From positions 35,866,901-35,930,900 of the forward strand of contig CM049317.1 of NCBI GenBank assembly GCA_026874595.1: DNA of 64,000 bases. The letters are read 5' to 3'. Below are positions 10,401 to 59,530 of the stretch, one piece after another (the stretch's first letter is position 1; every line of letters starts with the position of its first letter). Source of the DNA: Sipunculus nudus. Taxonomy: Eukaryota > Annelida > Sipuncula > Golfingiida > Sipunculidae. The notes beneath the pieces are model-generated. The model was not told the DNA's origin. It saw nothing but the letters and a program-made list of their open reading frames with translations, and made no database searches. A program made the position numbers and the translations under genes.

Positions 10401-13400
10401 GATCAGGCGGTTTAACAAATTAATTAAATTAATTAATTAGCAAAGACAAGCAACATACACAGTTGCAACTGTTTCCAAAAACTGTTATGCCTGACCGCAT
10501 ATCAGCATACCGCAGCATTCCTAGCTGCAGCCTAGCGTTTAAGAAAAGAACCTTTTATCGTTGTGTTCCCATACCCCGCCCGGCAATGGAACGTGGTTAG
10601 AATGTGGTGCGGCCATTAAGTAAGGTTTTGGGAATTTTTTACTCCAGTGAAGGAGCCTTCCAGATATTTTACGAACATGGGGTGCGGCCATTAGACGACG
10701 TGCGGCGGCAAAACGCGGATCTACGGTATACCAAAAAGCTATCAGTAAATTTCAATGACACATGGAGATATCTTCAGGGGAAAATAAAAGCTTAAACATT
10801 TTGTGAAGGCAAAAGAGGGACAACAAGAGGCGGAAGTGGGGGACATAAATCCCACGAATTTGCTTGTTTTATTTGATCTGTGTGAAAATATTAGGATGTA
10901 CATTATGATTCTCTATTATGAATTAGCTGTACAGTGACTGGGAAAGCTGGTGGTGCTGTGTAGATGCACAATACAAATCAATGAATGTTGGTATCAGTGT
11001 TTAACATGCAGAGAGTTCTTGAACCTGATTCCTTATCCCGTGGTCAGCAGTTTGGTCAAACAAGGAAGCTGAGGGCAGACAAGTGTGAGTGGGGTCAGAC
11101 AGAACAAATTACATTGGTACAGGGGGTGGTAATTCTCCTAGCCCGGGTGTCATCACAGACCAGTGTCTATAATTGATTATCAGGCAAATCATGGGTGCTC
11201 AAGAATAATCTGTAAAAGATAGATAGTCCAGAGTAAATTTATTTGATTTATCTTACCAGTGGCCTCATTGATATCAAACCACCAACTGATAGAAACAATT
11301 ATTTGGCAATATGCTAATTGCTTAGTTCATTTCTAGAGTAAATTAGTTTGTATAATAAAATTTGCTTCATTAAATTAAAGGTCTAAAAAAGACTAAATAA
11401 GCAATTGCATTGATGATTACATATATGTTAAATGTTCAAAATTATCAGATACTCAGAATTTAAGTTTTGTGTATTATTCAAGTGTTGGACTTAGGACACC
11501 TTTCATTGAAGCTTCCAGTTCCAGTGCAGAAATCTTAACAGATACTCCTGCAGGTTTCTTCTAATGTCTCAGTGGAGGTCATGATTTTTGGAATTTTCCT
11601 AGCATCATGCATAGATAACTGAAAATCAAGACAGATCCTTAGTATGGTGCCATATGAGAGATTGTACACTTAAATGCATATTAATTCATTATTACAGTGG
11701 AGAATGGACTCGTCTCTTTACCAAACCTAACTACATGTCAGTGCTCCGCAGCTATGGGATCAGCGGCAAGCTACGCAGCTCCCGTTTCAGGAGCGTGTGT
11801 TGGAAGGTAGAGTCTTCCTTAAAATAAATTTTACAACTTGTATCAACATAGCCCATATTAATATATTGATTTCTTGAATTTTTCTTATTTAATTACATAA
11901 TATTGGAAATTTTAATAAAGTACACTTTAAACAAAATATTATTTGATCTAATAATTCAGTTTAATTTGAGTTTTTAGGAACAATTTTTAAGATCAGAAAG
12001 TGGCTTTACACTGAACCCAGATTTATAAGATAAGATAAGATCAGATCAGGTAAGATAAGATAAGGTTAACCAAACATAAAGTAACATATAAGTAGCCCTA
12101 TGATTAATTCAGCTGTTTGTTGTGTTTACAGTTATACTTAGAAGTGATACCAGAGGACAGAAGCCAATGGCTTGAGAAAACAAGAATCTGGAGGAACAAA
12201 TATGAGGAACTCAAAAATCAAGTGAGACATTAATTAAAATCATCTCTGTTACCATGTGAGAAAGTAATCAAGCATGCAATTAGAGCATATATCAGTAACA
12301 TGTTAAACATTCATGCTAATGAACTAGTTCTCTAGGAAAGAATTTTGGTCAAAATTGCTGCAAGAAGATAGAAAATTGTTTTTTTTTACTACTAATCTGC
12401 AGTCTCCCTGCAGTCCATGTGGTCCCAGCTAGAATTGTTATACCTCATGATGCCTTGTCTGTAGGTGGTCATTCATATCTGGTCAAGCCCTTTTTGGTAA
12501 TTAATTGGTCTTTGGCTTCCATTTTGGAAAGGAAACTGTCAGCTTATTTGATGGAAGTAACTTCGGCCTCATCATAGTACAGCTTTAAAAGTAATGATGG
12601 AGTAAATACTAATAGTCAATAAGTATTATTATTTACTTATTAACTATTAGTATTACAGTAACAACATGTAAATAATAAAAACAACAATAGTTTGACCATC
12701 ATTTCAGTGCTCACAATCACAAGTGGGGCTGTACATTACATTACATTACAACTTTCAGTATTTGCACATCCATTATTCAACTGGTTTAAATAATGATAAT
12801 TCTGATCAAGGATATATTTATATATGACACAGCCGGTGATTAGACATGGGCTTTCATCCTGTCCTTCTTTGAGTTCTGACTTACTAAGACTGTTTCCCTG
12901 ATTTATAACATGTATTGATTACAGGGACTTGACCGTTCTCATGTTACATGTTTTTTGTTATTTGTTGACAGCTGGTGGTAAATCCACGACGGGAGACTGA
13001 GATGGGATCTGACCTCTCCCTCAACAACCCATTGTCTCAAGAAGTAGAGGTATGTCATCTGTTATGATTGTCAGGAATTTTTCAGTTTTAAAAAAATCTG
13101 AAACCTTTCCCTGCAACCCTTGTAGAAACAAATTTTGCAGAAAATATTTGATGCTGATTTCCTCATTCTGGATATAAGCATGAGGCCGATTATTTCTTTT
13201 ATTTCTTTTATTATTTACCAAATGAATCATTCCTGTGTTTTATCTTATTATTTTCTCTATAAGGTTAAGTACAGTGCACTTAACTTCAGGAAATCTTTTG
13301 AATTTTCCTCAATGAAAGTTACATGACATTTTACACAAGTTGGCATAACCTTTTCATGGACTTATTTCCGAAACAGATGTACATCTATATAATGAATACA

Positions 13401-16400
13401 CAGTTGTTTTTATTCTAGACAATGGTTTACCTGCTTCTGCTCTGATTTGACTCTCAAAATTCTACACACATATAGTCGGTGTGCTCTCCTAGGACAATTT
13501 TGTTTTCTTTTGTGGGATTATTTCCTATTAAGCTGCATAATTAATTATTTTGATATAACCCCCATAGCTGCCCCTATTTCTTTTGTGATTTAAGAGCTCC
13601 ATGAATGTCACACTCTTTCAGGAGGCGTCCCGGGGATTTTTCTTGCATTTCAAGCTCACTCGCCTATAGCAAGAGAGCATGCTATGCTTAAGCCTGGAGT
13701 TTTCATGCAATACGCAGTCTTGCAGATCGACACTATAATCCCCAATGACCACCATATCCAATACAACACCTCTAAAGGAATTTTACTCTCTCAAAATGAA
13801 GTAGTTGGTTTTCATTCAAATGCTAAAAAGACCAAATGAATCCACCTTTAATGCGAGGGCTTTTCAGTTGGGTCAACAGAATGGAGACATGTTGTACAAC
13901 TACCGTTCAACATTATTGGTTTGTTGCACACATATAGGATCCACAACCTCCACGGACATTGAAAAAATATAACCAGTACATCTTTACACTGGCAGGCATT
14001 CTGTTAACAAACAGGTACTGCAATCAGATCCTACAAACCTCCGCCAGAATCTTCTTATCAGTCATGTATTCATGTGTACACTTTTCATGTATGAACAGTG
14101 TCACGCTTCAGTAACTAGTTTCACCTGGCATGTGGAAGAAAAACATACACATGAACATGCAGCTTCTACAATGGGACAAAGAAATCATCCCTTTTTCATA
14201 ATAGTATTAAGAAAAAATATATTATGATGATTCTGATTGCCTCAAACTTAATGGTTTGTTCATACAGTTTTACTCTATCCCTCTACCTGCCTATTCTAGG
14301 TCATTCAACAAAGATCAGGACAAATATTTAACCCTGTTGGAATCTATTTACCTGAGCCTGTCTTTTCACTTTGGCAGCTATACCTGGCATTTTTCACATG
14401 CAAGAACCTGCACCAACATACATGTGTCTGTTATCATGCCTAAGAATATCACCAAATGACAACTTAAACATTTCCTGTGATATTCTCTGAACTTCAATTT
14501 TTACAAATTATCATTCTTAATTTCACTTTGCTATAGTCATATAATTCCTTCATATTATTTTCACAGAAGATGGTTTCTATATGCAATTGTTATATATCTT
14601 TATACTTTACTTGACTAATATATATGAAGCTGAAGAACATATTGCAAAAAAGAATAGCAAGATTTCAAGCTATTGAAATAAATTAAAATTATTGACAGAA
14701 AAACTAAATATAATTGAAGAATTAAAGTTTAATACCTATTTTGTTCTATATCTGCAGTATATTAGATCATCTTACATTTTATCTTTGTTTGTTGTTGATG
14801 ACATTTTGCTTAAAATGTATTCTGTCCATGTTTTGTATTACTGTAATATGTAATACATGTTTTATATTATGGGTTCTTTGCATGAATAAAAAAAAACATA
14901 TATATTGTCATCACTCCTGCAATAACTGTGTGGTACTCATGTTGTTTATCATAAAAAAATCTCACTCATAATTCATAGACCCTATATATGCCTCACGTCT
15001 TTTTTCCAAAATGTATTTCTATGTGTGATTTGTTGAACAGCATGATTTGGCACTCTTTGCTGACTGTTTATAGGGAAAGGGGTTTCTTCAAGAAAACAAG
15101 AAATCTTTATATCATTTAGTTAACCACATTAAACCACATTAAAAAGTGTATTAAAATATGTGACATTCAATTCCCACCAACTTATTACAAAACTATTTAT
15201 CTTATTGAACTGTTGATTTTCCACGGGTGCATCTAATAAGAATTAATGATCAGCAACCTGCCTGTGTAATTAGTGATGGAATAAAATGCAGATAAATATC
15301 TGTTCCTGCTGGTGCTTGCGTAAAAAGCAATATCACATAGAATGCCAGGGAGGTCTTAGTTTTACTTTTCTTGTTTTTCAGAGTCCTTGGAATCAGTTCT
15401 TCTTGGACAATGAGCTGAGGCTGACCATCAAACAAGATGTCATCAGGACGTGAGTTGTGCCGCATTCTCTCTGTAATTAAAAAATCAAGATGGTCCAGAA
15501 TGTATCATTATCATCAAAATTTGTGTTAACCTACTTTTTATCAACAAAATCAGATTTTGTGTCTCTTAGAATTTTGTTGGTACTTCTTTGAGAGTTGAAA
15601 TCACTTGGGCACCAGTAAATTTTTTAATATTGATAACAAATATTTGAATAAAAATCTTCATTTTCAAATCCACCATCAGCTTTTTTACAAGTTCTTTGAG
15701 AATATGATCAGATCCTTGTTAAATAAATGTGACATGGTGTCTGATTAACTTTTGAGAACTATCAAACTTTCAACTATCTGTTTTTAAGTCAACATAATAC
15801 ATAAAGAGTATGAATATATTTAAGTCATACATGTAAGTACTATATATGTGACTTTTATATTGTTGAGTTCAGCATCAGGGCTTAAGTAGTGTTCATTTGA
15901 TGATCCTTCCAAAAGAGTGCATCAAACGTGGCCTTTTCTGTTTATGAATATTTGTTTGTCAAATATCTGCAGTTGCAAAGCATTATGGTCAAATTTTCAC
16001 AGACAATGGGCCAATCTAGGTATAAATTCCCTCAATTTTACACAGTCACAGCTCAAGCCCTGATCACCAAGGTTTATTTCATGCTAACCATTGTATATTG
16101 TTGTGTACCCTTTTTCTCAGGTACCCCAAGTTTGAATTCTTCCATCGTGATCACATCAGGGCTTTGTTGGTTGATATACTGTTTATATATGCAAAACTGA
16201 ACCCAGATGTATCATACCGCCAGGTTAGCTATGGTGTTGTGCCCTCTCCGTGTATACAGATGCCCCTTGAATGTTGTGTCCTCACCTGTGTTGTCATGGA
16301 TACATGTGGATGGCAAACAATTATCAGAATCAAATAGAAAGCAGACATAATCAGTCAAGAATTGAAATGGTTAGGAATTAAAATAAAAACAATTCCAAAG

Positions 16401-19400
16401 TTCTCTGATCCTTTTGTAATAGGACCTCCAAAGCAAATTAGAGAGATATCAACTTAATGGAATTAATGGATACAGAGCCTGAGGATGGTATGGCTGCTGG
16501 TTTTGTCTTATTTTGGTTTATAAAAGTCTTCATTTGCATTAACTTTAACTAGCTTATCCTAACGGTTCATTATTTTCACTGGAAGATCAGTTGAGTTTCA
16601 TCCCAAATACAAAAGACTGATAATGAAGACTGACTAACCTATTTCAATATCAGTACATAACACAACAACACACCTGTGACAAGTTAATATTTTGTTGCAC
16701 AGACTAAGAAATAAATAGGAATGACATGCCCAAGGATAGTGTGTAAATGGATAAGTATTAGATAAAACAGCAGTTTAATTCAGACACTACTTATCACATA
16801 TTTCATCAATATAATAAAAAGTTGTGTGTTTTGATGCTCTCAGAAGAACTGATAGATTTGTTTTGTTGGACTGTATGAGAGGGCCTTAGGCCCCAATTCA
16901 GAGTAACAAACTGCTCTCAGTCATGATACACATTCTTAATCACTGTCAGAGGGAGCTGCAATCGCCTCTTGAAAAATAAAGTGATAAATCTCAGGATTTA
17001 CATGAAAATATAAGAAATGACTCCCTTAGGACACACTTTCCATCATTCACCTCACAGTTTGCATCATAGCTAAAGACCAAAAACGTGGATATCCTTGGCA
17101 TGGAGATACAGAGGAGATGTGTGATCACCGTCAAGTATATAGACATGTCTGCTTCTTATCTTGTGATAACCTTCATTCTCATATAGGAGCCAGAGTTAGC
17201 CACAGGGTATAGCCCTACCTTAAAAAAATTATGTATAAAGATAAAACAAAGTTGGGTGTTTCTGAATTTTTATCTTAATTGAAAAGTAGATGATATGGAT
17301 AAAAGAGGGAAGTGACCTTCGAGGTTACTTTGAAATTAAATCTATTATAGTGGATAAGTATATGTTAAAAAGTTTAAAATAAAAGGTAATGGTCCTTGTT
17401 AATTGATCATGTGGAACAGTACTTGCTCCATGGTATAACCAACTCTGTATACCCACAAATGATAAGTTTCAGGTAGCAGCCATATGATATTTATAAATCA
17501 GTAGGAAATTTTGCCAGTGGCATCATGCTTATCCAATAGAAGTGAGTCCACACAGGATCTGATTCCCTGAGATATGCATATTTTGTAAATTAGTATACAC
17601 ACCCTCATATATGGAGAGACAGGTATTGGGAAATGGATAATGGTTTGCAGCAGCAATACCAGCAATGTTCCATGCTGAACTGTAGAACTTTTAGAAGATG
17701 TTTATTTCTTAGAATCAGTCAGTACCCATGTGTTTTAAGCATCATAGACATTCTTATCTGTAGCTCCTGGTTCCGTATGAGAGACATTAACTTGTGTTTT
17801 AATGCTGTTGTTGTTATGTAGCCACTAACCTGTGTTCACCTCAGCTAACCAGTGTAAGCTGGGTTTTCTTTTGTTTGATTATAATGTGCTGTGCTATAGT
17901 GACTGTTGTTGGTTTCTTTCAGTTTCCCTGAAATTGAGTTCTTCCAAGATTCCAATCTGCATGAGAAAATGGTTGACATTTTATTTTGTTTCGCCAAGTC
18001 CAATGATAGCGTAGCATACAAACAGGTTTGATTGTTCTTCAGTAATTAACATTATTCCTGTGGCACAAATGTTATTGTAATTGATTTTGTTTATTTAATT
18101 ATTAATGGAACACCTGCCACTTTGCTCCTACTAAACTGAGTTTGTTGTAAAAATAATTTTCCTCACTAGCACCTGCTGTAAAAACATTGCTTGAGCAAAA
18201 TAATGAATAATAATTCTGTTAATGTTATGGAAATTGTACTTTACACAGCTACATATATCATATGTGATATAACCATTTCTGTTATAGACAAGTCTCCAGC
18301 AAAGATACTGTGGTTGAATTGGTATTCACTGGGTTAATATTTTATGATATTTGACTGTGTCACTGTGTTTTGAAGGTTTTTTTTATCATGAGCACTACAT
18401 ATAGAAAGCCTCACAGAGTATATCCAAATTATAAGAATTCATCATTTAAAATTATATATAATCAAATCATTTTAACAATTAGACTCAAGAGACATTGAAC
18501 AAGTGGTAATTATCATTTATTAATTGTAGATTATTTGAAAGCTTTAATTTCATTTTTAAAAGCAATCTTTAATTAATATACAGGTAAAATACACAATTTT
18601 TTATTATTTATAACATCTATCTTTTGCGTTTTGACTTCCCTTCAACGATAGACCTCTAATTCATGATGGTTTTATATTTGTGAAAGTTTTCCTGTAGCAA
18701 ATATCACAAATTTGAATACCTCACAAACAAAAAGACATTCACAGTATCTACTTGAATACGTTATCTCTGAGACCAGAATGTGACAGAATTTCAAAAGGAA
18801 AGAAAGGGATACCAGTTAAAAATTTGATTACTGGGATAATATTTAGTAAACAAGAGCTGCAAACAGAAAAAAATATGAATGTTTCAGATGTAAGGTTGCA
18901 TTGGAAATATTATATAATTAATTAGGCAACAATCTAAACTACTCCTTGTTATGGCATGTTCTGTGAATGAAAGTTAAAACATTAACATAATTTTAAAATA
19001 TGCAGTAGTATAGTATTTTTTCTGCATCTTATATTTAAATAATTCAATATTTCATTGTCTCTGTTCAATTAATGTTATGTCATATACAACATCAATTTGA
19101 TTTATATGACCTTGTATTGAGGAAAGGTGTTTGCTTTAAAAGTAAGATAATATAAATGTCATATCCATTTTTTTGGTAAATCACAGTTTCATCATGATGA
19201 TCAAGTAACAAATGCATCAGACTTCACATACATGTGTGTTATATTAGCTCTTCTGTTTTTAATCCATTGGCGGTATCTTCTCTTATTGTTCTATAATTGA
19301 GAAAAGTTTTCAGAAATGATAAAAATCTCATTCATGATTTTCAGGGTATGCATGAGTTACTGGCACCATTGATATTTGTTCTACACTGTGATCACCAAGC

Positions 19401-22400
19401 ATTCCTACATGCCAGCGAGATGGAGAGACTTGAGTGAGTTTCCACTTCCTTAGTTCAGATTATTCATATTTATTTAATAAGGACTGTAGATATAGCCAGT
19501 GTGTCTGGTATTTTGCTAGTACTATATTATCTCAGGTGAAAGAAAAATGAAGAAGAGAATGTGATATCTAATACACAAAATGGAACAACATGTACACAAA
19601 ACATATCGGCACAACCCCTTTTCATTTATCTGATCACATGTACAGGGATGTGAAATCAAGTATTTTTGATATTTTGGGAAAATATGAAGAATGCCAAATT
19701 TAAAGCAAAAATCAGTATAGGGTGGCATTAAGTGCATGTGGAATATAGTACATGCATGTAGTTACAAATGATAACATATTCAGCTGACAGAGGTCTGCTT
19801 TGATCAAATATACATGTTTACTTAAGAAAAGTGCAAATACCAGAAAACCGAGTTATTTATATGAGCATGAAGATGTGTAAATCAAACTGATTTTTTTCTG
19901 TTATCTTGCAACCAAGAGGTGCACCCTGGAATAACTGCACTTAGTGAAACTGCATTGTTTTGGTGTAAAAAATGCAAATTTGAAATTTGTCGTGTGTTCA
20001 GTTTGTTCCTCATGTATCATATTCCTAACTTGTGTTATGTTGTACAAACCATACACTTGGAACAATTTCTTGTTTGTTATTTACACTATGAAAAATAATG
20101 TAGTGTATAATTTGTCTCAGTGTTCAGTTAACTCACACTTGCTGTTGTTTGTGGACCAGTGCAAATGTGTGAAGTGTCTGCCTGAGGACTTTCTTTTATT
20201 CATACAGTCCCACAGTACTGGTCATGGCAGTCAAATCACTTTGTGATAAAGGTTAGTGAAATTCTCAACTCAGGGACTTACATTGTACATAGCTGTAGCT
20301 TTCGACTGTATCACACGGTCATCATCAGCAGACTGGTATGCTTGACAATGACTCAGGTGTAGTCACATGACCACAGGGCCGGATCATGTGACAACAGGTG
20401 GTTGTAAACCTGTGGAAGTTCCAAGCCCAGGTCGCGGTTTGGTGCAGGTTGTTGGCGTTGGGGAAACTGAGTTCCTCCTTAACCTTTCTCTTGACATTGA
20501 CTGAATCTGACTCTTGGATCTTAGCACAGTCCTACTGCATCCAGTGTCTGGCGTCCCTCTGGTGTTCATAACCAGCGGTCAAGCACATCCTCAAGCATGC
20601 AACTATGACTTTGATATGGTCAAAAGCTGCAGCTACGTACAATGTAACTCCCTGAGTTGAGAATTTTACTAATCTTTATGGAACCTCCAGGGACAGGATC
20701 AAACATATATAGATTTACTTTGTGATGTTTTTTTTGTGTGTTTATGTTGGTGTGAATGTGATCCTGTTGTGTTGATTTCTTTCCAGTGGTTTATGTTCAC
20801 ATGAAAGGCAAGTTTTAATTGAGCATGTAGGCATGCTTTGTTTTCAGTTACAGTTTTCTTGAATTTTTTACAGTATTCAGGCATCTCTGTATTTTGGTCA
20901 TGTCGTTGTTATGTACACCTCATTACAAAAAGCACCTTTCTATTACAAATACTGGATTCTTGAGATTTGTAACCTCTGTGTTACATAAAAAAACAGGTGT
21001 TACCTGTGTCCTTGGTTAGGATTTTTAAGTACTTTTTGGGTAATTCTATTTAAATAATTGGGAATTACTGTACTATCATTTTCCTTTTCTGGACAAAATT
21101 GCACACAAGAAAATTCTTTATTGTTTCCCCTCTGATCAGACAGGTAATATGTAAAATCCTTCTTCACATTCTTTTGGAAAAATTATATATAAATTTTCTT
21201 CCTTTTGTCAATATGACTATATAACAATTTCTACGTTATCCCCTGTAAGATTTGATCATGATGTGCTTTACACTAATAACACTAACATTGCTTCTGCATT
21301 CTGACAGATATTGTCCTCACATAGGATATCTGTATTGGATATACAGATATTTCTGAAACAATTAATTCTCAAAACTCTAGGAAAATTAATTTAGCCAATA
21401 GTTCTCTAAAAATAAATGATGATAAAACTTGAAAAAATTGTCAAGCAGATTCATAATTCTTTATGTTACTTCCAGTACAGCAGTTGTATAATTCTACCAA
21501 TATGAAACTTGACTTTCAGAATTCTAAATCTGAATGTCAAGTGGTTTATCTCTAGGTATTTAAGCTTGTCTTTAGAAATTTGCAAGAAGTTTTCAAAATT
21601 CCTTTTTTTATGTGCAGAAATCTTAAATAAATTACATCCATATACAAAGATGTAGAAACCTATTACCCACGTACTTGTTCTTATTTCCAAACAGAACAGC
21701 TTAATGAAAGAGTGTGTATAACTACTGTTGTTTTGATTGAATTGGGTTCATGTTCTTTTGTTGAGTAACACACTAACCATGAGTAAAACTGATGGACCAC
21801 ATGTTAAGATTTTTTGTTTGTTTGCATATAATTAATCTTTCACTATATGACACCCCATCGTTCAGTATTTTTGCATGGTTAAATGCAGCATTCTATCTAA
21901 AACGTGTCATTCCTTTGTACAGTGGCTCATCATTTATCTGAACATATTCATGTGTAGCCAAGCATCCCTTGTTCATATACTCCTGAAGTAAACCTGTGTA
22001 TATTTATGGGTTCTAAATTATATGTTCGTGACCTAAGTGAAAAAAATTCATATCTCATTTTTAAAATATGGAACACTGCATGTGTCACTGTTTTAAATTT
22101 TGGTTATGTTGACCCAGTAAAATATAATCTTCAGACACGATGTGGAACAGAAAACATTTGCTGACACTTAATACATTCAGATAAACAAACTTCCACTGTA
22201 TATGTTTTTGTCCTGCAATAAAGGTTATATATGTGAGAGCAGCCGGTGCTTCTTTTGCATTTGAAGCTGTATATTTATCATTTTACTTGACAGCATTTGG
22301 ACAGGGGTTCCAAAATCATAAGGTTGTCTGCTTGTTTAGCTATTGCTTCCATATTGCTTCCATAGAGCAATGTTCGGTGGAGGTGAAGTAGCGCCATATC

Positions 22401-25400
22401 GGCCCTCTGACAGTACACTGTCACTTGACATAAACCAGACTTATCTTAAGCATTTTAAGTATTCCCTTGTGTTTATTCAACATTTGTAGCATATTGTTAA
22501 GATAATGGGCTGTTTACCACAATGTGAATGCAACATGATTGAAGACTACTGCAATGCATTCCTCAATAATGCCTGTATCATGACTCAAGTGGGGTTACCA
22601 GCCCAATTATCATTGCCTACAGAGTCGGACTGTCATGGCCAGAGGTGGGGGTGAACTTCTAGACATATCTTTTGAAGAAACAGCTCAAAGAGGCATACTT
22701 AGCAGAACCATACTAATACAGCATGTTGTCGCAGAGTATTTGCACTTCATGTGTTCAGGAGCATTGGTGAATTGTTTAGTTTCTCCCATGTTTTATATAA
22801 TTAGATTCACTAGATGGTGAAACACATCAAGCAAATCCATTCTGCATGTTCACAACAATCATTCTCATCCCATTTAAAAGTATTTAGTATAGCTGATTAC
22901 TTTATGCCCTCCGCAAAGTACAATGGATTTTGCCATTAAATAAAAATATTTATTCATATGTATAATATCTGGTCTGAACTCTCTTCCACCCAAACATATT
23001 GGACTTTATTTTCACCTTACATAGCTAGATAATTATCACTTCGCTAAAAATTCTAGGTGATAGAATATCATTATAACATTTAAGAGTATTTAGGATTGCT
23101 TTAAATTATAGCTGGTACTAAATTCTGTTCATGCTTGAGGAACTGAAATGCTAAATATTGTTGTGCACTGGTAGGTGTGCAATGTAAGAAAACAAGCACT
23201 GTATGTAAATTTGCAGGATAGATAGCTGAAATTGCATATGTCTAAGACCTGTCCTTGGTGGATAGTGTCACAAGTCATTGTCTTCATTTGTAAATTATTT
23301 ACCTGTTAAATTTCCAGCTTGAGGGAAATTTTGTTGAAACCTGGTCTGGTGTCAAGTCTTTCAAAGAAATTTACAGTATTCTCTGACATCATTTGACTGC
23401 TTTTGGCAGAGGTAACAATGAAAGCATTTCCTTCATAAGCAGCAGCAAATGTCTGTATGCCACCTATAACCTGTAGCTCTGGGTATACATCCAGAGTATA
23501 TCCAAAAATAATTATTGGTAAGATCATTTCCACCTAAGATGGTGTTTTTTTTTGGTTGGGGGGTGGGGGGTCTTAGGGAAGGGGTAGGGGTTTATTAGTT
23601 ATAAAAGCTTATGTGTATTTGCTGTGGTATAAGATTTGATACAGGTGCATTGTGTATTCTCAAGATGGTTCAGTACCATTTACTGTCTGTGTCACTTGTT
23701 ATGCATTTGAAAAGAGAGAGAGGTGTATATGCTGTCCTGCTCACACAGAATACATTGCAATCAAATCACTCTTTGTTCAGAACAGAAAGCCTATAGCTAG
23801 TTTGTTTACAAACCAGGAATGTTAGGAATAATTGAAATGAAGAAGCTAGACATTTGATGTACCAGCACTGTAACAGAACCATTAAGCATTGACCTGGGTC
23901 AGTGTGATTTCACTTGGTGTGTACTGTATGATTATTAAGTTAAAACTCTAATTATTCTTGTTTTATGTTTCAGGGACTCTGTAAAGGAGATGCTTAATCC
24001 TGAGTTCATAGAACATGATGCATTGTGAGTAAACCTTTTTGTGTAGATGTAACAAAGCCATTGTCATTCTGTTAATTATTGTTCATGATTGTTTGATTGA
24101 TATAAGGTTAGTCACGCTTTAATTCATAAAATTGGATTCCTAAAATTTGAAATACATGCGATATCTTAGTATATATTAAGTCATGGATTTTTTAAAAGAT
24201 ATTTTATTCATCACTGTTTATCTTGCATTTTGAAAACAATTGTCACTTTTATGTTAAACTGAGAAGTGCCTGGACTTAGTACTTAAGTACAAAGCAAAAT
24301 ATATAAAACAAATTAAATTTGTCACCCAATAGAGAATGATCAGAGTGATAATTTAAAGTCATGACAAAGCCATGAAAGTTTTATCTATCGGAAGTACAGT
24401 GGAACCCTGCCTTGGGACCATCCCACATTTGCAACCAATCCACAATTACAACTACTTTTCTTGGTCCTTAATATATGATCCAGGTAACTTAGAATTTCAC
24501 AAATATGACCACCCCAAAATTACAACTTTGGTCAGTCCCCAAGGTGGTTGTAATTGTGGGGTCCACTGTACCAATATATGAACTGTATGACAGTATGTAC
24601 TCTTGGAAATGAAGCTGTTAATAAAGCATGCACCAGGCATCAGGAATCATACTGAAAAATGTTGATGAAAAATATTATTTTGGATAATAACTCTCAGATA
24701 TGTAATGATTGTTGTATCAAAATCTGAGTGTAGAACCTTTGAAGCTCAGGGTTTAGAATGTCACAAGTATGATGATAAATTAGATACTAAAGATGAATTG
24801 ATAAAAAAGGCTGTTGTTACCACAAATGCAATTTAATAAGTGATTTATATTTTTTCTTTATTGTCAAATCTTACCATATACTATGGTTGTCTTCCTATTT
24901 GCGGTGGCTTCAAAATTGCAATATTCACAGTTGCTCTGTGACCACAAAATTGAAACCAGGCAGTTTTGAATGCATACCAGATCATGAGCATTAATTTCAG
25001 CAGCTGCCAGTAGATGGTGACAGTTATGATTTATGCAACATAAAGAAAGAGGATCCCACCTGCCACTTCGTTAACTGGGATTTTTTCAAAATCAACTTTG
25101 TTATATTAGGAGTTAATGTACACTTTTTCTGTGTTTGTACTTATGTATACAAATATTTTTTAATAGTCAGAATACTCTCATCTTAGTGGTTGTATTCCCT
25201 GCAATTTTGTTTGGAATTAAGTTGGTGAGGTCAGTCTGATCTTTTGCTGCTCGGCAGATCTGTGCACTCTCAATTGATGTACACTCATGTTGGTCAGGCA
25301 GTGCTTTGGTCCGGGGTCTCTTCTTCAGCCACTTAGTGAAGTCCATCAAGGCTGGCTCACTTTAAGTGATTCAGGGCGAATAACTGGGCCCATTTATATG

Positions 25401-30041: not shown

Positions 30042-31821
30042 GGGACGCAATGATTGTATTTTTTTTTTTGCACAGATCATGTATGACATTATGCATAAAG
30101 TGTAGCATCACATTTTGTATCTATTTAAAGAATTCACAATCAGTTTGGAAAAAAAACACTCCATTATTCTGCATATCAATCAAGTTTACATGTCACCATA
30201 ACACAGACAAGCACATTACACTTCACTAAACATTTCAGTGTTTGATATGTACACTTAGCTACAAAGACAATAAATACATAATAAAACATGTAGGTCTGTA
30301 TTTCCACAGATATATTTACATGTTTTAGATATATTCATTCTGTATATACATATTACAGGTATATGTATGTATTAATATGGATATCTGAGCACAATAGATA
30401 TAATCTACATACCGTATTACAGTTGTATGTATCTATTAATATAGCTATAGGAGCACTATTAAAAAAAGAGAAGAGAAAAAGAAAGAGTGAGAAATAGAGG
30501 AAGAGAGAAAGAGTGAGAGAAAGGTGAGAAAAAGAGAACCATAGATGGGGAGAGAGAGGTAGAGAGAATGGGCAAGAAAGAAAGTGAAGAAGGGAGAGAG
30601 AATGAGAGGCAGAAATAGAGAGGGAGAGAAATAACCATTGTTGCTGTTATCTCAATACTTCAATTATAACAAAGCAGATAATCAGCTGACCACTGTGTAC
30701 TCATCATTTGAGGTCTGGCCCCTGCCCCAGACACACTAATTGCCCTGGTAGCCCTGCTCCAATGCCCCCAGTCAGGCATGAAGCCCCATGATTGGCCAGA
30801 TAAAAGGGTAGCACAGTGGCCTGTACTGGTACAACCCAGTGTCCTGTAGTAGTACAAATGTACCACTACAGGACAGGGTAGCACTTTGGGTACTGTGACT
30901 GTTCAAACATGCTATGTCCAGGCACAGAAAAAGTAGGCCTAGATCATGGTGAAATCAGCAGTTTATGAAATAATTAAGTCACTACATTTTATAGTTTCAT
31001 ATTTGATCAATAAAATATATGACTACACTTACATCAAAGTGCAAAAAGAAACCCCGTGAACCTTAAAAAAAAGCGTGAAAATTCAACCTCGCTGATATAA
31101 ATGCAACCACAGTATATAAAATAAAATGTTACTTATGTAAAAGTTTAATTGAATATAGACATATTTATTCAAAAGTATGTATGCATATATTCCAGTACCT
31201 GTGTTTATATATGTACTGGTATGTCTCATTTCTTAAATCATATTATCTGGTTGTTGACATTCAAGAAATGTATATGATAGTTGAGACATGATGATATTTC
31301 ATTGTTCAGTTCATCAACATTTGGAACTAAAAACATTTTGTAATATACATTGGAAGAACATATACATTCTTTGACAGTGATTTTTAAATCTAGTATATTG
31401 TGCTTTTACTCTTGCTTAATCCATAAATAGACAGGAAGAGTGACAAGAAAGGTCAAAAGAAGATATAAATCTACATATTGTCATATTGATGTGTTTTCTG
31501 TTCCAGTTCTATGTTCTGTCAGATCATGGAGACAGTTGTGCCATGGTACATGTCCAGAGAGAGGAGCCCAATTTTAAAAGTAAGCACATCCAGATAAACC
31601 AGATCATGAAACAGCCATTTGTGCACAAATGTTTATATTGATATTTGATGAACTGATGTGATCATGGAAGAGTTATTTACCTACAGATACAGGTTATGAC
31701 TTTGGAGAGATAAGCATATTACTTATAATACTTGACAATAGTTGATATTATAAAACCTGTCATTGAGTGGATCTAAAGTCTGTTTATGAGTGATAAATTA
31801 ACAGGAGATAATATTGAATCA

Positions 31822-31884
<63 letters not shown>

Positions 31885-34800
31885 TTATATATATACCATA
31901 TGTGACATAATGAGTGTCCACCCTGTTATAAGAAGCAGTACTTACAGTCACTGTTATTATGCCACCTCACTGGATGATTTTGAAGGCATGGAAGTATGTC
32001 TGAGTATCCCAAGGCCAAAAATATTGGCTAAGGAAATCAAATTTTCCCTAAATTAGCGACTAAAAGTTTCCCCTGAACCCCCAAAAAGGTCATATCTTAG
32101 CTGAGAACAGCATGTTGGGATGGACCTTTCGGGATACAAAAACTAAATGATAAAATTCAATTTTGAAAGCACCTCAGTTGCTCATTATGTCAAATACGGT
32201 ATAGATATATAAATATATATTTATTTATATATATAAAATACACACACAGAGCAGATGCACTCTCTTTGCATAAAAATAATTTTTATTTACCATTACTGAC
32301 TTGCTGAATACCAGTGCCAATGTAGCTTTAATGTTCTGGTATTTATCTGTTGATCAGCCACCGTCACATGTTAACCAACCCTTCGCCAAACTGCCTGACT
32401 TCCAGCCAACCAATGTGATCATGACCAAATTGACAAGAATCCATGATTATCTGCTGAAAAAATATGACTTGGATCTTCATGCTCAGCTGGAGAGGATGGA
32501 GATTGCTCCACAGATTTATGGAATGTAAGGATTTACCTTTAGTCTGGGTCACATAGTTTATTAACCATATCATATATCAAGCACAGGCTGCTTGATCTTA
32601 TGTTGAATAAATTTCTTCTCTTAATGTTGTGTCTGTGACATGCAGTTATGATCTGATCTCGTCTCTGAGAGATCTAACTGGAAATACAAGTATGTTAGAG
32701 TTGATATTTTGATTGACTATTAATGTAAGTTTAGGCCTCCTGTTAATACATTTATTCACAAATCTTTTGAAAAAAGACTGAGAGACTCACAGAGTTCACC
32801 GCACTGCATATATCACTGGCTTATTGAAGACATGCTGGACTGCTGTTTCTTATTATTGCACATGCAAAGTGACTAGAAGTCAGGTTGCTGTTCTAACTGG
32901 AGCTTTGTCTCATACCACACCATGTCTTTCATTGGACTGTAGCTTGGATTAAATAAACCCTGGCTCACACTATCTGTCATATCCGAGGACATCTGTAGCT
33001 GTCATACATACCGCCTTACGCTCTGCCCCTGCAGCCAAGTAAACTTGGCTAAATCAATCACCCTGGTGACCTAATTCTGTTACAGGGCTCTGATGATTAA
33101 AAGCTGTCAAGCTTGTGGTATTGTTTATACATGTTATATATATGATCTTAAGGAGTTCTTGCTGCAAAATCATGCATGGACTGTTATACTTTTGTCAGCT
33201 GTAAAAAATTGTCCAAATGTAAATTTAAAAATATAGTTTCACAGTACTGATTTTCCGATTTCTTATATATTAGAATGATAATTTGCCTTGTATTTCAGCC
33301 GCTGGGTTCGATTATTGTTTGGAAGGGAGTTTCCAATGCAAGACTTGTTGGTGCTATGGGATGCCATCTTTGGGGATGGTATAAGCTTTGACCTGGTGGA
33401 TTATATCTTTTTGGCCATGTTGTTATATCTCAGAGAATACAGTAAGTGCACCAACCACAATCAGTCTGGCTGTTATAGACCTGTTTAGACTGTAGATCTT
33501 GTTCATCATGGCTTTAAGGCTTTAAACACTTTATGAAATGATAAAAGGTAGTGGTAGCCATTAATTGAAATGATAATATCCCCCCTTCAACTGCCCAAAT
33601 TTTTGTGCTCAAAGTTTACGGCTAAGAGAGAAGGAAGCTAGCACACTCAAGAACTTTTTAGTGTCACTGAACACGTTTTGCTGATAAACACAATTCATAA
33701 AAAGCTTGATAAGGTGAATGGAATGCTTTCAGTACTGGTTATTCTGCCCCATACAAGATGACAGCTTTCTTTTCATGTTTTTCATGTGCATATTAATAAG
33801 AACAGAGGTCACTAGTTTTAATACGCCTGTCATATGAAGGGAATATTTAGGTATACCCACCATCTGTCCCTCTATCAACTTTTAGTATCGCCATGTTAAC
33901 TGACCAGGGCTATGATGGATTTTCATCAAACTCACCATAGCTACTAACCAACAGATTTTCTTGTCTGAGTTTGATTACAGGCTAAATCCACGCATATTTA
34001 ATAAGGTCACAGGTCACTAGGCTACTTTGTGGTGTTTCTGGGATAACTTATGAAGAATATGAAGGATTTTGATAAAACTCATCAGAAATGTTAATCTGTA
34101 AAGTATCTGACCAAGTTTAATTTCCAGCAAAATCCACACATATTTAATGAGGTCAGAGGTCACTGCACCTTGGAGGCATTGTGGTGACTTAACAAAAATC
34201 CTATGAAATTTCATGAAACTCATTGTACATATTTACCAATAGAGTTTCTCACCTCATTTAAGTTTTCAGCATATTTCATGCATATTAAATGAGGTCAGAG
34301 GTCACAAGACCTACGACCAGCATATTATGCACATTGCGGTGCTCTTGTCAGTGTTGTTGTGATAACTTACCATGACTTTGATTAAACTCACCAAAAGATT
34401 CAAAACAGGCTTATCATGTAATCTTGCAGTCCTCTTGTTTTAAGATATTGTACATGTAAGGCTAAATTGAACATTTATTGCCATAAGCAAACTTCTCCCG
34501 TTGTCTTAGCATATTTAAAATTTTTCATTTAAACTATACCCAGGTGATCCACTCTACTGATATCACAGTTCGAGCCCTTCATTGTACTCATTCAATGAAT
34601 TATTGGTCAAAGGAACTTTTTTGTATATTTCATGTATGATTGTATATCACAGTTGTTGAATTAACATTAAATTACCATTTTTTTAATTTAAAGGAAATTA
34701 TTCTTATGTAACCATCATAAGCAACAGTTGTAAATTTTACATGAAAGATATTCTATGAAAAGCATTTTTTTCTGTATTTCCTAATGGGCTGATTAATAAA

Positions 34801-37800
34801 TATGTTTACATATCATGTCTTTATACAGTGCTAACCAGTGACTATGCCAGTTGCCTCAAGTGTCTGATGAGATATCCTCCTGTTGGGGACATACACTTTA
34901 TTGTACAGAAGGCTTTATACCTCAGAGAACCTAGTGTAAGTAACATCCGTTGTATTATTGTAAGTCTGTATTAAAACATTGTTTTGAACAAAGCTGAATG
35001 AAAGTCATCTGAGGAATTGCTATAGTCCTTTGACATTTGATATATTCTCCGAGTAAACATGACATGTAATACAAGTGCTGAGAGGCCAGAGGTCAGATCT
35101 GTTACCTTGCCTACATCTTTCCCATCAAACATATATCATTTCAACTGTTTAGCAAGGCCAGAAACCACCTTATTACATGCATAATATTGTGATACCGCTG
35201 ATACTGTACTGGCATGTAGAGAGTTTATATCTGCTTGGTTTTAGCAACATCAGAGACCTCCAAATTACATGTACCAGGCAAACATGTCATCAACAGGAAT
35301 GGAGTCTGCTGCTCGAGTACGAGGTAGGTGTCTTGTACTGGTAGCAGAATGTTTTCAGTGTTGGTGTTTTGTCTTGATAAGACCATGAAAGTAACAACAA
35401 GAATCTGGGGGTTGAGAGTATATGTTAAATTGTCAGTAGGTAATGTTTTATAGATATATGATGTTTAGAGTATATTGTGAGGGTTTTAATTACGTGATAT
35501 TTGCAAATAGGAATTAATCATGTATATGAAACTATTGCTGGGAATAAATTGTCCTATCATCTAAATAAGCAGGAGAGAAAGATGCATGTGGACAATTTGA
35601 TTATTTATAATACCTCTGAAAACGTGGTTTGTTAATCGGAAACTGGCCCATTAGTTTATTACTGTAAAATGCGGGGATACTTCTGGCAATATATCAAATG
35701 TGACACAAGTAATGATATCATGACTGTAAAAGAAATTTGTGAAGTACTGTGGAATTATTAATATTCTAATTTGTAATAACTACAAATACTGTTGCACCTG
35801 TAAACCTAGATTTTATTGGTTCTGTTGCAGTTGTGAAAATAAAACCTTCATGAAAAGTTCAAAATAAAGAAATCACAAAATTTCAGCCTGACAAATATAA
35901 TATGCGGGGATACTTCTGGCAATATATCAAATGTGACACAAGTAATGATATCATGACTGTAAAAGAAATTTGTGAAGTACTGTGGAATTATTAATATTCT
36001 AATTTGTAATAACTACAAATACTGTTGCACCTGTAAACCTAGATTTTATTGGTTCTGTTGCAGTTGTGAAAATAAAACCTTCATGAAAAGTTCAAAATAA
36101 AGAAATCACAAAATTTCAGCCTGACAAATATAATATGCGGGGATACTTCTGGCAATATATCAAATGTGACACAAGTAATGATATCATGACTGTAAAAGAA
36201 ATTTGTGAAGTACTGTGGAATTATTAATACTTGTAGTTATTACAAATTAGAATAATGATATCATGACTGTAAAAGAAATTTGTGAAGTACTGTGGAATTA
36301 TTAATATTCTAATTTGTAATAACTACAAATACTGTTGCACCTGTAAACCTAGATTTTATTGGTTCTGTTGCAGTTGTGAAAATAAAACCTTCATGAAAAG
36401 TTCAAAATAAAGAAATCACAAAATTTCAGCCTGACAAATATAAAGCCAACTACAGTATGTTAAATTTTCAGTAGGAAACATTTGACTATGATTTAAAGGA
36501 TGAGGAGGTTGAATGTATATGTTAATTCTTCAGTAGGTAATGTTTGACTATGATTTAAAGAATGAGGATTTAAATGTAATGTTTAAATGTACATGTTAAA
36601 TCTTCAGTATGTAACACTTGACTATGATTTAAAGAATGGGGATGCTGAAGACATGTATATGTAAAATCTTCAGATGGTAACGTTTGACTATTATTTGCTC
36701 TCAGTTCATCACACTAAGTACCAGGAGAAGCCTGGATCACTGATGTCTGGTCTGTCTAGTCTGACACGACGCTTCAACACGGGGCGCCCCGGGAGTCTCA
36801 GCATCCTTGGCAGTAAGCGGATGGCCAAGTCTGAGAGCGAACCAATGAATCTACAAACTGAGCAGTCCCCAGGAGGATCAGGTCTGGTCACACATCACAT
36901 TGTAATATTGTTAACACACTGTCACACTCAAATCAGTCTCAAAATGGTTGTAATATTGTTAACACACTGTCACACTCAAATCAGTCTCAAAATGGCTGTA
37001 ATATTGTTAACACACTGTCACACTCAAATCAGTCTCAAAATGGCTGTAATATTGTTAACACACTGTCACACTCAAATCAGTCTTAAAATGGCGCTAATAT
37101 TGTTAACACACTGTCACACTCAAATCAGTCTCAAAATGGCTGTAATATTGTTAACACACTGTCACACTCACATCAGTCTCAGAATGGCTATAATATTGTT
37201 AACAAACTGTCACACTCTAATCAGTCTCAAAATGGTTGTAATATTGTTAACACAGTCACATTCAAATCAGTCTCAAATGGCTGTAATATTGTTAACACAA
37301 CTTCACACTCAAATTGTCTAAAAATGGCTGTAATATTGTTAACACACTGTCACACTTAAATCAGTCTTAAAATGGCGCTAATATTGTTAACACACTGTCA
37401 CACTCAAATCAGTCTCAAAATGGCTGTAATATTGTTAACACACTGTCACACTCACATCAGTCTCAGAATGGCTATAATATTGTTAACAAACTGTCACACT
37501 CTAATCAGTCTCAAAATGGTTGTAATATTGTTAACACAGTCACATTCAAATCAGTCTCAAATGGCTGTAATATTGTTAACACAACTTCACACTCAAATTG
37601 TCTAAAAATGGCTGTAATATTGTTAACACACTGTCACACTTAAATCAGTCTAAAAATGACTGAAATATTGTTAACACACTGTCACACTCAAATTAGTCTC
37701 AAAATGGTTGTAATATTGTTAACACACAGTCACACTCAAATCAGTCTCAAAATGGCTGTAATATTGTTAACACACTGTCACACTCAAATGAGTCTCAAAA

Positions 37801-40800: not shown

Positions 40801-43206
40801 ATCTGTGAAATCTGTGGGAATGAAACTGATGCCAAAAACAGCAGCAGCATTCACCAACTTAAGTTTATGTAACTCTTCCATATCTAGAGGCCTCTGTGAT
40901 TTAGGGTAACAGCACCTGACTCAAAAGCCCTATTGAATCTCAACTGAGGAGGGGTGAGATTTTTCACTGTAGACCCCCAATCAGAGTGGAAGCTCTGCTG
41001 ACTTAACGGGAAGACTGTGCCCCACAATCATGTTTCACTCACAAAAGAGTGCACCTTTTGGAGTTCATTGGTGTTAATGACCCAGTGATGGGGAATAATT
41101 CACACTCAGGACCTGCATTTGTGATACCCCTGGCCTGGTTGATGACGGGATTATTGTGTTGTCCCCTGTCCAGTCTGAAACCAGAACAGAAGTCTACAGA
41201 TGTGCATTAGAAAAAAAAAGCCCATTAAAATCTTGAATTCTTGTCTCTGATGCACTTGTTCCATAATTTCACTGCTACAAGCTATCATCCAAGGTGTATC
41301 ACACAGTAAGAAGGACCTCAGGGTCTCCTTGTCGTTTCAGTGGATCCATGGGAATACAGAGTGAGACCAAAGAGAGGCTCTGCTTCAAGTTTGCCGGCAC
41401 TTGGTGAGACTGAAGTCGTTAGTATGATCCACCCAACTATCTCCTCGCAGAGCCTGGCTCGACTAGAGACGTCTGGTGCCAAATCTGCGAGTTCTGCCGC
41501 AAGCATGAATGGTGACATGAGTCCTTATGATGGGAATGCCTCACCCAGCACTAAGTATGCAACGATGCCACTCCGGGGCAAGAAGAGCGGCAGGAAACAA
41601 GCAAAACTTGTGAGTTAATACACAAAAAAACACTTCCCTGATATTATCCTGTTATGTTTCTTCATTAGTATTGGTCTGTCTACAGCCTAACTAACTGTCT
41701 TTGTAACTGTCCTTGTCATTACTTAAGACATCATGCCCATTTACCTTGAATCATTTGTCTTTTCTGTGTATAATGCACCATCCCTTTCTATTTGTATGAT
41801 GTATGAACCCTCTGTCTTGTGTTTACAGGAAGCAGCCCTTGAACATCAGATATCTTATTTACAAGGTCGCTTGAATGAGTTCGAACATATGTGTCATTAC
41901 TGTGCTGGGAAGATGGATACTCAGATAAGTAAGAAAATATATAATTATACTCAAATATTAAATAAATAATACCATTATAATAATGTCATTGTCATATTAT
42001 CATATAGCTGTTCATTTTGCTGAAGTGATCTATATGCACATACATATTTTTCTGTTCACAGAAGTGTGCTGTGTGATTTGAGTCTACATAAAAGTCTAAT
42101 AAACAGTTTTAATATAATTAGTTATTTCATTATCTTCTGCCCTTTTTCATTGCCCGGAAATCATTGGTTGTCATACGCGTGATCAGTTATTATAATTTAA
42201 TTACCATTGAAATAAATATTCTGTTTGAATATTGTTACAGTAAATAATAGAAGCAAATATATTTCCAGTCATATTAAGTGTTAGTTAGGTTGAATCATGT
42301 TGAAATATGGCACTGTTTTATTTACAGAAAAACTTCAAACGGAGATCTTGAGACAGGAGGTAGAAAATGAGGATGAGCTACTGCTGGCACTGGCAGGTCT
42401 CAAACAGGTAAATATGGTCATCTTATGTATACCTGTGGATCTATATCTCTATGTATATTTGTATATAACTCTAAAAATTACAGAACACTACAATACTTTC
42501 TGATTATTTGGAAACAGGCTTACAAGCAGATAAACAAAAATCCTGCACCTGAATCAAAACTGAACAACTCACTGATCATCTGTTCCATTCCCCAAGATCT
42601 ACAACTCTGTTTTAACTTGCATTATCAAGCTGCAGGCAATCCACCTCTGGTCACAAAGTCTCAGCTTTGCCAGGTATCTGATTTGTAATGGGTCACTGGT
42701 TGAGATTCCCTGCTGTCTGCGACAGTCACAGGTGTACAGTTATTCTCATACCCCCCCATACTCACCACCCACTTAGTGTTATGCAGTAATTCTTATTGTT
42801 TGAACTGTATTTTCTTAATTGTATCTCTGTTTCCACTCTAATTTACAAAGCTTTTCTTGAAACAGTAATTCTAGGAGTAATCCAGAAGAGGCAATGTTGT
42901 GGTAATGTAGCATTTCTAAAGAAATCAATTTCTTTTAAATGATTTTAACAAATTAAAATATCATTAAACCCATCAGTATGCATAAATTGAAAATATATGA
43001 GTCATATTATGGATAAATGAAGGTGCAATTTAAAATAATGAATACTGAATCAAGTTTATTTTTCTGATATTTATTGTTTTGCAAATTTATAAGATATATT
43101 TTTATGGTAAATAATAAATACATTTGTATGCATAATGTGGTGTTATCTAACAAAATTAGGGATATATGATGATGCAATTTAGAATTTTGAATCAACTTAT
43201 ATATTC

Positions 43207-59470: not shown

Positions 59471-59493
59471 GTTTGTTTATCTTGAACATGAAT

Positions 59494-59496
<3 letters not shown>

Positions 59497-59527
<31 letters not shown>
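59497..59527. repeat. (AT)n microsatellite
   Basis: A short AT run immediately left of the inverted-repeat end at 59528. Confidence 0.95.

Positions 59528-59530
<3 letters not shown>

Follow-up and report, generated by a model that had tools for sequence, protein, structure and literature searches.

TBC1D5 of the peanut worm Sipunculus nudus contains a probable mutually exclusive exon pair between its two catalytic fingers

The protein TBC1D5 turns off endosomal Rab GTPases. We analysed a window of 64,000 nucleotides from Sipunculus nudus (contig CM049317.1), where tblastn with a working version of the human TBC1D5 sequence gave matches collinear with the human protein over 11.7-44.6 kb. These ordered matches along its length, together with the presence of the Ins1 motif as NNPLSQ, identify the gene as a TBC1D5 orthologue, as judged with this working query (Table 1). 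Searches of the animal's own genome found no second TBC1D5 locus, and none of the 5 candidates scored there was a retrocopy of a spliced form. The RabGAP-TBC profile (PF00566) gave 34 matches among the best candidates in this genome, a search in which the exons of TBC1D5 itself missed the E value of 0.001. We also compared by eye the profile ranges of neighbouring PF00566 matches for a similar exon pair in another TBC gene; the single long overlap, on C4 (L017 and L031), corresponded to consecutive exons plus intron read-through when 12 loci were translated, of which the minus-strand L009, L016, L029 and L036 were unreadable in the frame used and were dropped. Pfam families of haemocyanin and egg lysin, looked for as signs of a mollusc, gave no match in searches whose controls were likewise empty. 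No match to NCBIfam profiles was found, no entry named TBC1D5 appeared among the PDB matches (the best being TBC1D14, 15, 17 and 22B), and Rfam gave 0 matches in the window at the gathering threshold.

Table 1. Exons assigned to TBC1D5, with positions counted along the window
Feature	Positions	Strand	Remarks	Basis
Exon YSGEW...CWK	11693..11806	+	5' boundary approximate	tblastn, sequence
Exon LYLEVIPEDRSQW...KNQ	12132..12221	+		tblastn, sequence
Exon with NNPLSQ	12972..13049	+	matches NPL of human VPS29-binding Ins1	tblastn, sequence; motif from PMC5105194, excerpt
Exon 6	15382..15449	+	ends past Arg finger (IKQDVIR) in a split Thr codon; donor GAC/GTGAGT	sequence
Exon 7A	16121..16223	+	alternative between-finger segment YPKFEFFHRDHIRALLVDILFIYAKLNPDVSYRQ	sequence, Pfam on spliced isoform
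Exon 7B	17923..18025	+	alternative between-finger segment FPEIEFFQDSNLHEKMVDILFCFAKSNDSVAYKQ	sequence, Pfam on spliced isoform
Exon 8	19345..19433	+	first residues directly past Gln finger, GMHELLAPLIFVLHCDHQAFLHASEMERL	sequence
Exon DSVKEMLNPEFIEHDA	23974..24024	+		tblastn, sequence
Exon SMFCQIMETVVPWY...	31508..31579	+	boundaries approximate	tblastn, sequence
Exon PFAKLPDFQPTN...PQIYGM	32379..32525	+	boundaries approximate	tblastn, sequence
Exon RWVRLLFGREFP...LLYLREY	33300..33440	+	boundaries approximate	tblastn, sequence
Exon LTSDYASCLKCLMRYPPVGD...	34831..34938	+	boundaries approximate	tblastn
Exon EAALEHQISYLQGRLNEFEHMCHYC...	41829..41927	+	region matching human coiled coil	tblastn, sequence
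Exon LQTEILRQEVENEDELLLALAGLKQV	42333..42410	+	boundaries approximate	tblastn, sequence
Coding stretch VRDVLKGTLKF...	44398..44622	+	3' boundary approximate	tblastn, sequence

Exons 7A and 7B are both 103 nt long, run from phase 2 to phase 0 and are bounded by GT-AG sites. Their peptides are identical at 15 of 34 residues (16 of 35 counting the junction Thr) and their DNA at 52 of 102 positions. The dual-finger motifs of RabGAP TBC domains have been described as IxxDxxR and YxQ (PMC13090580, excerpt); IKQDVIR in exon 6 fits the first of them, and the Gln finger is the final codon of each copy, as YRQ in 7A and YKQ in 7B. The first-pass annotation had reported the coordinates, lengths, phases, splice sites and 16/35 identity of the pair, as well as this placement of the Arg and Gln fingers, and all of them agree with what we re-derived from the sequence. 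We take the swapped segment to correspond to residues 170-204 of human TBC1D5, in the numbering of our working human sequence.

The resemblance between 7A and 7B is beyond chance. The plus strand of the window holds 194 candidates with the AG-103-GT arrangement, 28 of which have an open frame in the required phase, 7A and 7B being two of them; these two exons score 85 against each other (BLOSUM62), while the next best of the 28 reach -8 (against 7B) and -11 (against 7A), with no third copy of the exon among them. On the minus strand, 22 of 213 candidates were open and the best scores were -14 and -7, and 100,000 residue shuffles gave a top score of 35. When the 15 exon peptides of the gene were compared with the window, only those of 7A and 7B matched elsewhere at E<0.01, and they did so mutually at 7e-8. 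Scored with a crude matrix, the acceptors of 7A and 7B fall at percentiles 99.8 and 97.6 of all AG in the window and the donors at 98.2 and 91.0 of all GT; by this measure the splice sites of 7B are weaker than those of 7A, yet both rank high.

Joining both exons gives TTT CCC TGA at the A-B junction, with the stop 94 nt ahead of the next junction, and skipping both leads to a TGA eight codons past the junction Thr, 61 nt ahead of the next junction. Both outcomes had been anticipated in the first-pass annotation and were reproduced on the joined sequence, and the mutual exclusivity that it proposed is well supported at the sequence level, the frame being broken by double inclusion and by skipping alike. 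In adjacency, homology, phase, length and non-productive double inclusion, the pair has the attributes of mutually exclusive tandem-duplicated exons. On this reading, at least the frame enforces mutual exclusion, and probably also nonsense-mediated decay (NMD), which would clear transcripts carrying both exons or neither. Since only one exon would be usable at a time, the animal is probably able to make two versions of the TBC1D5 enzyme: exon 6, with the Arg finger, would be spliced to one of the two copies, 7A or 7B, which in turn would be joined to exon 8. The two proteins would have in common both fingers and everything encoded beyond the pair, including the parts that bind retromer, and would differ between the fingers. 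We consider it very likely that 7A and 7B are a functional mutually exclusive pair, which would have arisen by an old tandem duplication inside TBC1D5 and been retained in both copies.

Within the finger-joining segment, 19 of 35 residues differ between 7A and 7B, and the net charge goes from +1 in 7A to -3 in 7B, a change of 4 that falls within the first 17 residues. Because of this shift in charge, the swap may alter how the GAP meets its Rab, and it could plausibly tune GAP activity or the preference for particular Rabs. TBC1D5 has been described as a GAP for Rab7 that is bound to retromer (PMC5105194, PMC6031384, excerpts); it acts on Rab7 and retromer, and orthologues of it occur widely in eukaryotes (PMC5105194, excerpt). 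The human protein contacts retromer through Ins1 (peptide 132-158, VPS29) and Ins2 (with I283-P284-F285, VPS35), according to the same excerpt; as these contacts lie outside the swapped segment, the tuned response to retromer that the first-pass annotation had also considered is less likely. Within our reading of a functional pair, and compatible with it, the two isoforms could still be equivalent, with a choice between them that is neutral or matters for expression only; this would agree with the catalytic residues and conserved core (FF, VDILF, AK, YxQ) common to 7A and 7B, but we regard it as rather unlikely given the number of differing residues, the change in charge and the long retention of both copies, which argues for distinct roles.

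Comparison of codon positions 1, 2 and 3 showed identity between 7A and 7B at 18, 22 and 12 of 34, respectively, against 8.5, 11.2 and 8.8 expected by composition (P = 4e-4, 2e-4 and 0.14). Direct tests, whose power is limited with 34 codons, gave P = 0.014 (one-sided) for position 2 versus 3 and P = 0.035 for positions 1+2 versus 3. Because position 3 is near random and positions 1 and 2 are conserved, silent sites are, as judged from these codons, near saturation while amino acids have been kept in both copies. In simulations of neutral drift to 52/102 identity, at least 15 residues were kept in 2 of 20,000 runs started from 7A and in 1 of 20,000 started from 7B, and 12% of the drifted copies were free of stops. 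With the same flanks, both spliced isoforms match PF00566 above the cut-off (53.0 bits with 7A and 49.2 bits with 7B). The proposal that both copies are functional is likewise well supported, by the Pfam, codon-position, drift and scoring evidence.

The same data make it very unlikely that one copy alone makes protein and the other is a decaying duplicate, spliced little or never. Such decay could be read into the weaker acceptor and donor of 7B by the crude score, or into the lower likeness of 7A to the working human sequence (13/34 against 16/34 for 7B), but 7A and 7B have each retained their residues, frame, length, phase and splice sites with silent sites near saturation, drift reproduces this retention at most in the two runs mentioned, and both isoforms score as TBC segments. 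Lower still is the probability that one copy acts mainly as a poison exon, setting the level of TBC1D5 through joint inclusion and NMD: the stop at the A-B junction would suit this role, but a TBC-like peptide is needless for a poison exon, and both copies are constrained in their amino acids and each completes the domain alone. An assembly artefact, either a collapsed paralogue or a false duplication, has nothing for it beyond the general possibility and is practically negligible, with DNA identity of only 52/102, no second locus in the own-genome searches and no repeat flanking 7A and 7B at matching distances.

The divergence between 7A and 7B resembles their divergence from human TBC1D5 (working sequence), and the duplication is therefore probably old. 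A search of genome contigs provided two outside relatives, L038 and L039, each with one exon copy in the stretch examined, while none was found in the viral contigs scanned. L039 is closer to 7A (16/32 against 12/32 for 7B), with which it shares TYP and LFIYAKLNP, and L038 is closer to 7B (15/35 against 12/35 for 7A), as is the working human sequence (17/35 against 14/35). That each copy keeps residues found in outside relatives counts in favour of a functional pair; the single copy in both L038 and L039 counts against it. In a tree of 5 sequences and 35 residues, L038 leaned towards 7B and L039 towards 7A, with four topologies within 2.5 log units and none rejected. A bolder scenario, which we hold as possible but doubtful, is that a switch in the TBC1D5 core arose long ago in invertebrates, perhaps already in bilaterians, and was lost in vertebrates, with 7B vertebrate-like, 7A keeping the TYP and LFIYAKLNP of a probable protist relative, and the swap altering Rab target or rate by tissue.

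Regarding how 7A or 7B would be selected, steric exclusion does not fit an intron of 1699 nt (16224-17922), nor does U2/U12 incompatibility fit the donors GTGAGT, GTTAGC and GTTTGA with their pyrimidine-rich acceptors, judged against the U12 donor consensus. A 23-bp helix (16811-16833/18585-18607; about -26.9 kcal/mol) could loop out 7B and a 15-bp helix (15548-15562/17550-17564; about -23.0 kcal/mol) could loop out 7A, both energies coming from an approximate stacking table. The 7B helix (I2-I3) beat 60 of 60 shuffles, the 7A helix 56 of 60 and the best outer-intron pairing 47 of 60. Natural placements in the window reached the same strength in 19% (n=150), 23% (n=150) and 45% (n=100) of cases, respectively, and because of this we do not count these helices as evidence. 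No helix stands out, and this test, limited by being made on a single species, gives no support to an RNA structure of the docker-selector type. As in the docker-selector system of Dscam (PMC6071210, excerpt), one exon of a tandem array would be chosen to the exclusion of the rest, but the TBC1D5 pair has only two exons and lacks helices above the natural background.

The gene described here and human TBC1D5 are alike in being the same gene by tblastn and in their TBC domain, the NPL motif of Ins1 and the Arg and Gln fingers (human R169 and Q204; PMC5105194, PMC6031384, excerpts), but differ in the two interchangeable segments, no such pair being in print for human by our literature search. 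The first-pass annotation knew of no such switch in vertebrate TBC1D5, and our search gave no report of a pair in TBC1D5, which agrees with this view as weak evidence. No literature precedent was found for a duplicated exon in Rab6A, and TBC1D5 was absent among the matches listed for molluscs. The exon pair of Ca-alpha1T has been described across protostomes, molluscs included, and as gone before chordates (PMC9741552, PMC5740500, excerpts); the TBC1D5 pair resembles exons of this type in its neighbouring homologues of equal length and phase, in the frame broken by double inclusion and in a probably old origin. In contrast, the tandem duplicated exon substitution events of human are reported in these excerpts to be enriched in ion channels, and TBC1D has 0 occurrences in the main text of both papers; the TBC1D5 pair is described here at the sequence level. 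If our reading is true, a membrane-traffic regulator would join this class of splice switches, and the exchange of only the piece between the fingers would offer a natural test of its share in Rab choice and rate.

The window, at C12:35866901-35930900 in an assembly of 1.43 Gb and 153 contigs, holds a TBC1D5 gene on the + strand: tblastn matches of a human TBC1D5 query are collinear with the human protein from 11.7 to 44.6 kb. They include NNPLSQ, which corresponds to the loop through which human TBC1D5 binds VPS29 (PMC5105194). Protein searches of the same genome found no second TBC1D5 locus among the best candidates scored, where the lone match elsewhere, on contig C1 with 35% identity, belongs to another TBC gene.

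The first-pass annotation had described twin 103-nt exons (7A and 7B, hereafter A and B) in this gene, and their coordinates, YRQ and YKQ ends and phase 0 continuation into exon 8 were all borne out, with a Thr codon split between exon 6 and either copy (see table). The reading frame is open in both exon 6+A+8 and exon 6+B+8. Spliced translation likewise reproduced the TTT CCC TGA expected where A is joined to B and the stop within about nine codons expected when both are skipped (VCMSYWHH after the Thr); the reversed order, B then A, used as a control, gave a stop as well. NMD of both aberrant transcripts is plausible, because the stops precede the next junction by 94 nt after double inclusion and by 61 nt after skipping. 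The predicted mutual exclusivity of A and B is well supported at the sequence level.

Exons of the pair and its neighbours, complementary arms and outside TBC1D5-like genes
Feature	Position	Strand	Remarks
Exon 6	15382-15449	+	ends past IKQDVIR with split codon AC
Exon 7A	16121-16223	+	first base completes Thr, then 34 codons, last = Gln finger in YRQ
Exon 7B	17923-18025	+	first base completes Thr, then 34 codons, last = Gln finger in YKQ
Exon 8	19345-19433	+	continues in phase 0 past either copy
Complementary arms, 23 bp	16811-16833 and 18585-18607		flank exon 7B
TBC1D5-like gene	L038:5001-5225		record carries one of the two MAG labels, Phycisphaerales and Verrucomicrobiaceae
TBC1D5-like gene	L039:3444-3778		record carries one of the two MAG labels, Phycisphaerales and Verrucomicrobiaceae

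The + strand has 194 AG-103-GT candidates, of which 28 are open, A and B among them; the minus strand has 213, of which 22 are open. A and B score 85 against each other, and no other candidate on either strand exceeds -7. When 15 exon peptides of the gene were matched to the window, a second place at E < 0.01 turned up for A and B alone. Identity between the copies at codon positions 1, 2 and 3 is 18/34, 22/34 and 12/34 (expected 8.5, 11.2 and 8.8), with a weaker signal when positions are compared directly (2 vs 3, Fisher P = 0.014 one-sided; 1+2 vs 3, P = 0.035). Neutral drift to equal identity left 15 or more residues unchanged in 2 of 20,000 runs starting with A and in 1 of 20,000 starting with B, and with the same flanks the RabGAP-TBC score is 53.0 bits for A and 49.2 bits for B (cut-off 25.2). 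By these measures the resemblance is neither chance nor decay, and the earlier proposal that both copies are functional is well supported at the sequence level by the codon-position constraint, the drift runs and both RabGAP-TBC scores.

Over 35 residues A and B share 16, and the human protein matches A at 14 and B at 17; if rates were similar, the duplication would date to roughly the time of the split from vertebrates. A genome contig scan matched 49 stretches, 2 of them encoding relatives, L038 and L039, whose records carry labels of bacterial MAGs and which, judged by content, are likely eukaryotic contaminants. Intron-like interruptions break up the L039 gene, one of them directly past the Gln finger in phase 1. 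With TYPDMHFF and LFIYAKLNP, L039 is near A (16/32 vs 12/32 for B); L038 is nearer B (15/35 vs 12/35 for A), and each holds a single copy within the stretch examined. In the best tree B, L038 and human group together to the exclusion of A, none of the four topologies tested being rejected. Since each copy has its outgroup likeness (L039 to A; L038 and human to B), neither looks like debris.

As to what enforces the choice, frame and NMD alone could impose exclusivity in the mRNA pool. PMC5740500 reports exons whose length is no multiple of three in 60% of human clusters, and joining reads in 22% of that subset. Competing intronic helices exist, yet they are no better than the natural background of the window, and the 23-bp helix flanking 7B outdid 60/60 shuffles but not that background. 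Steric exclusion is disfavoured because the A-B intron spans 1699 nt; the splice sites of the pair look U2-type. B may need an activator, since A has the stronger sites by a crude score.

The same kind of event is treated in papers on tandem duplicated exons (PMC9741552, PMC5740500, PMC6071210), in whose main text the word TBC1D occurs 0 times. Skipped or cassette exons of human TBC1D5 have been reported (PMC10615768, PMC4878813, PMC8370746) but are not described as homologous twins in the passages covered. The pair is unreported among the matches listed for TBC1D5 or RabGAP with mutually exclusive exons or alternative splicing, in a collection that covers a minority of subscription journals.

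Elsewhere in the window, a 48-nt tandem repeat (36901-40786, about 82 copies, 90% match) lies between TBC1D5 exons and, with a period divisible by three, makes long open frames; the three frames tested gave no Pfam match above the cut-off. A 233-nt unit present 2.4 times in a TBC1D5 intron (35665-36229) is probably a recent tandem duplication, as its units match at 99%. The open frame at 59218-59547 (+) may belong to a downstream gene as one of its exons; its C-type-lectin-like matches stay below threshold (Lectin_C E = 0.0015, UL45 2e-5).

In TBC1D17, PMC13090580 places IxxDxxR and YxQ in the domain's most conserved stretches, adjoined by a dimer surface to which the loop past helix H7 belongs; from alignments to TBC1D15 and TBC1D17 we infer a loop of this kind, and the helix after it, for the swapped segment. 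A and B have in common the core pattern FF, VDILF, AK and YxQ, and differ in charge in the first half (HRDHIR in A vs QDSNLH in B), with a net charge over 35 residues, counted by hand, of +1 for A and -3 for B. The retromer contacts of human TBC1D5, located in the insertions Ins1 and Ins2 (PMC5105194), fall outside this segment. Human TBC1D5 R169A/Q204A, called catalytically inactive, is without the wild type's dominant-negative effect (PMC6031384), and the matching Arg and Gln are retained in both isoforms. The swap would probably alter how the GAP meets Rab7 or another Rab, and may affect GAP activity.
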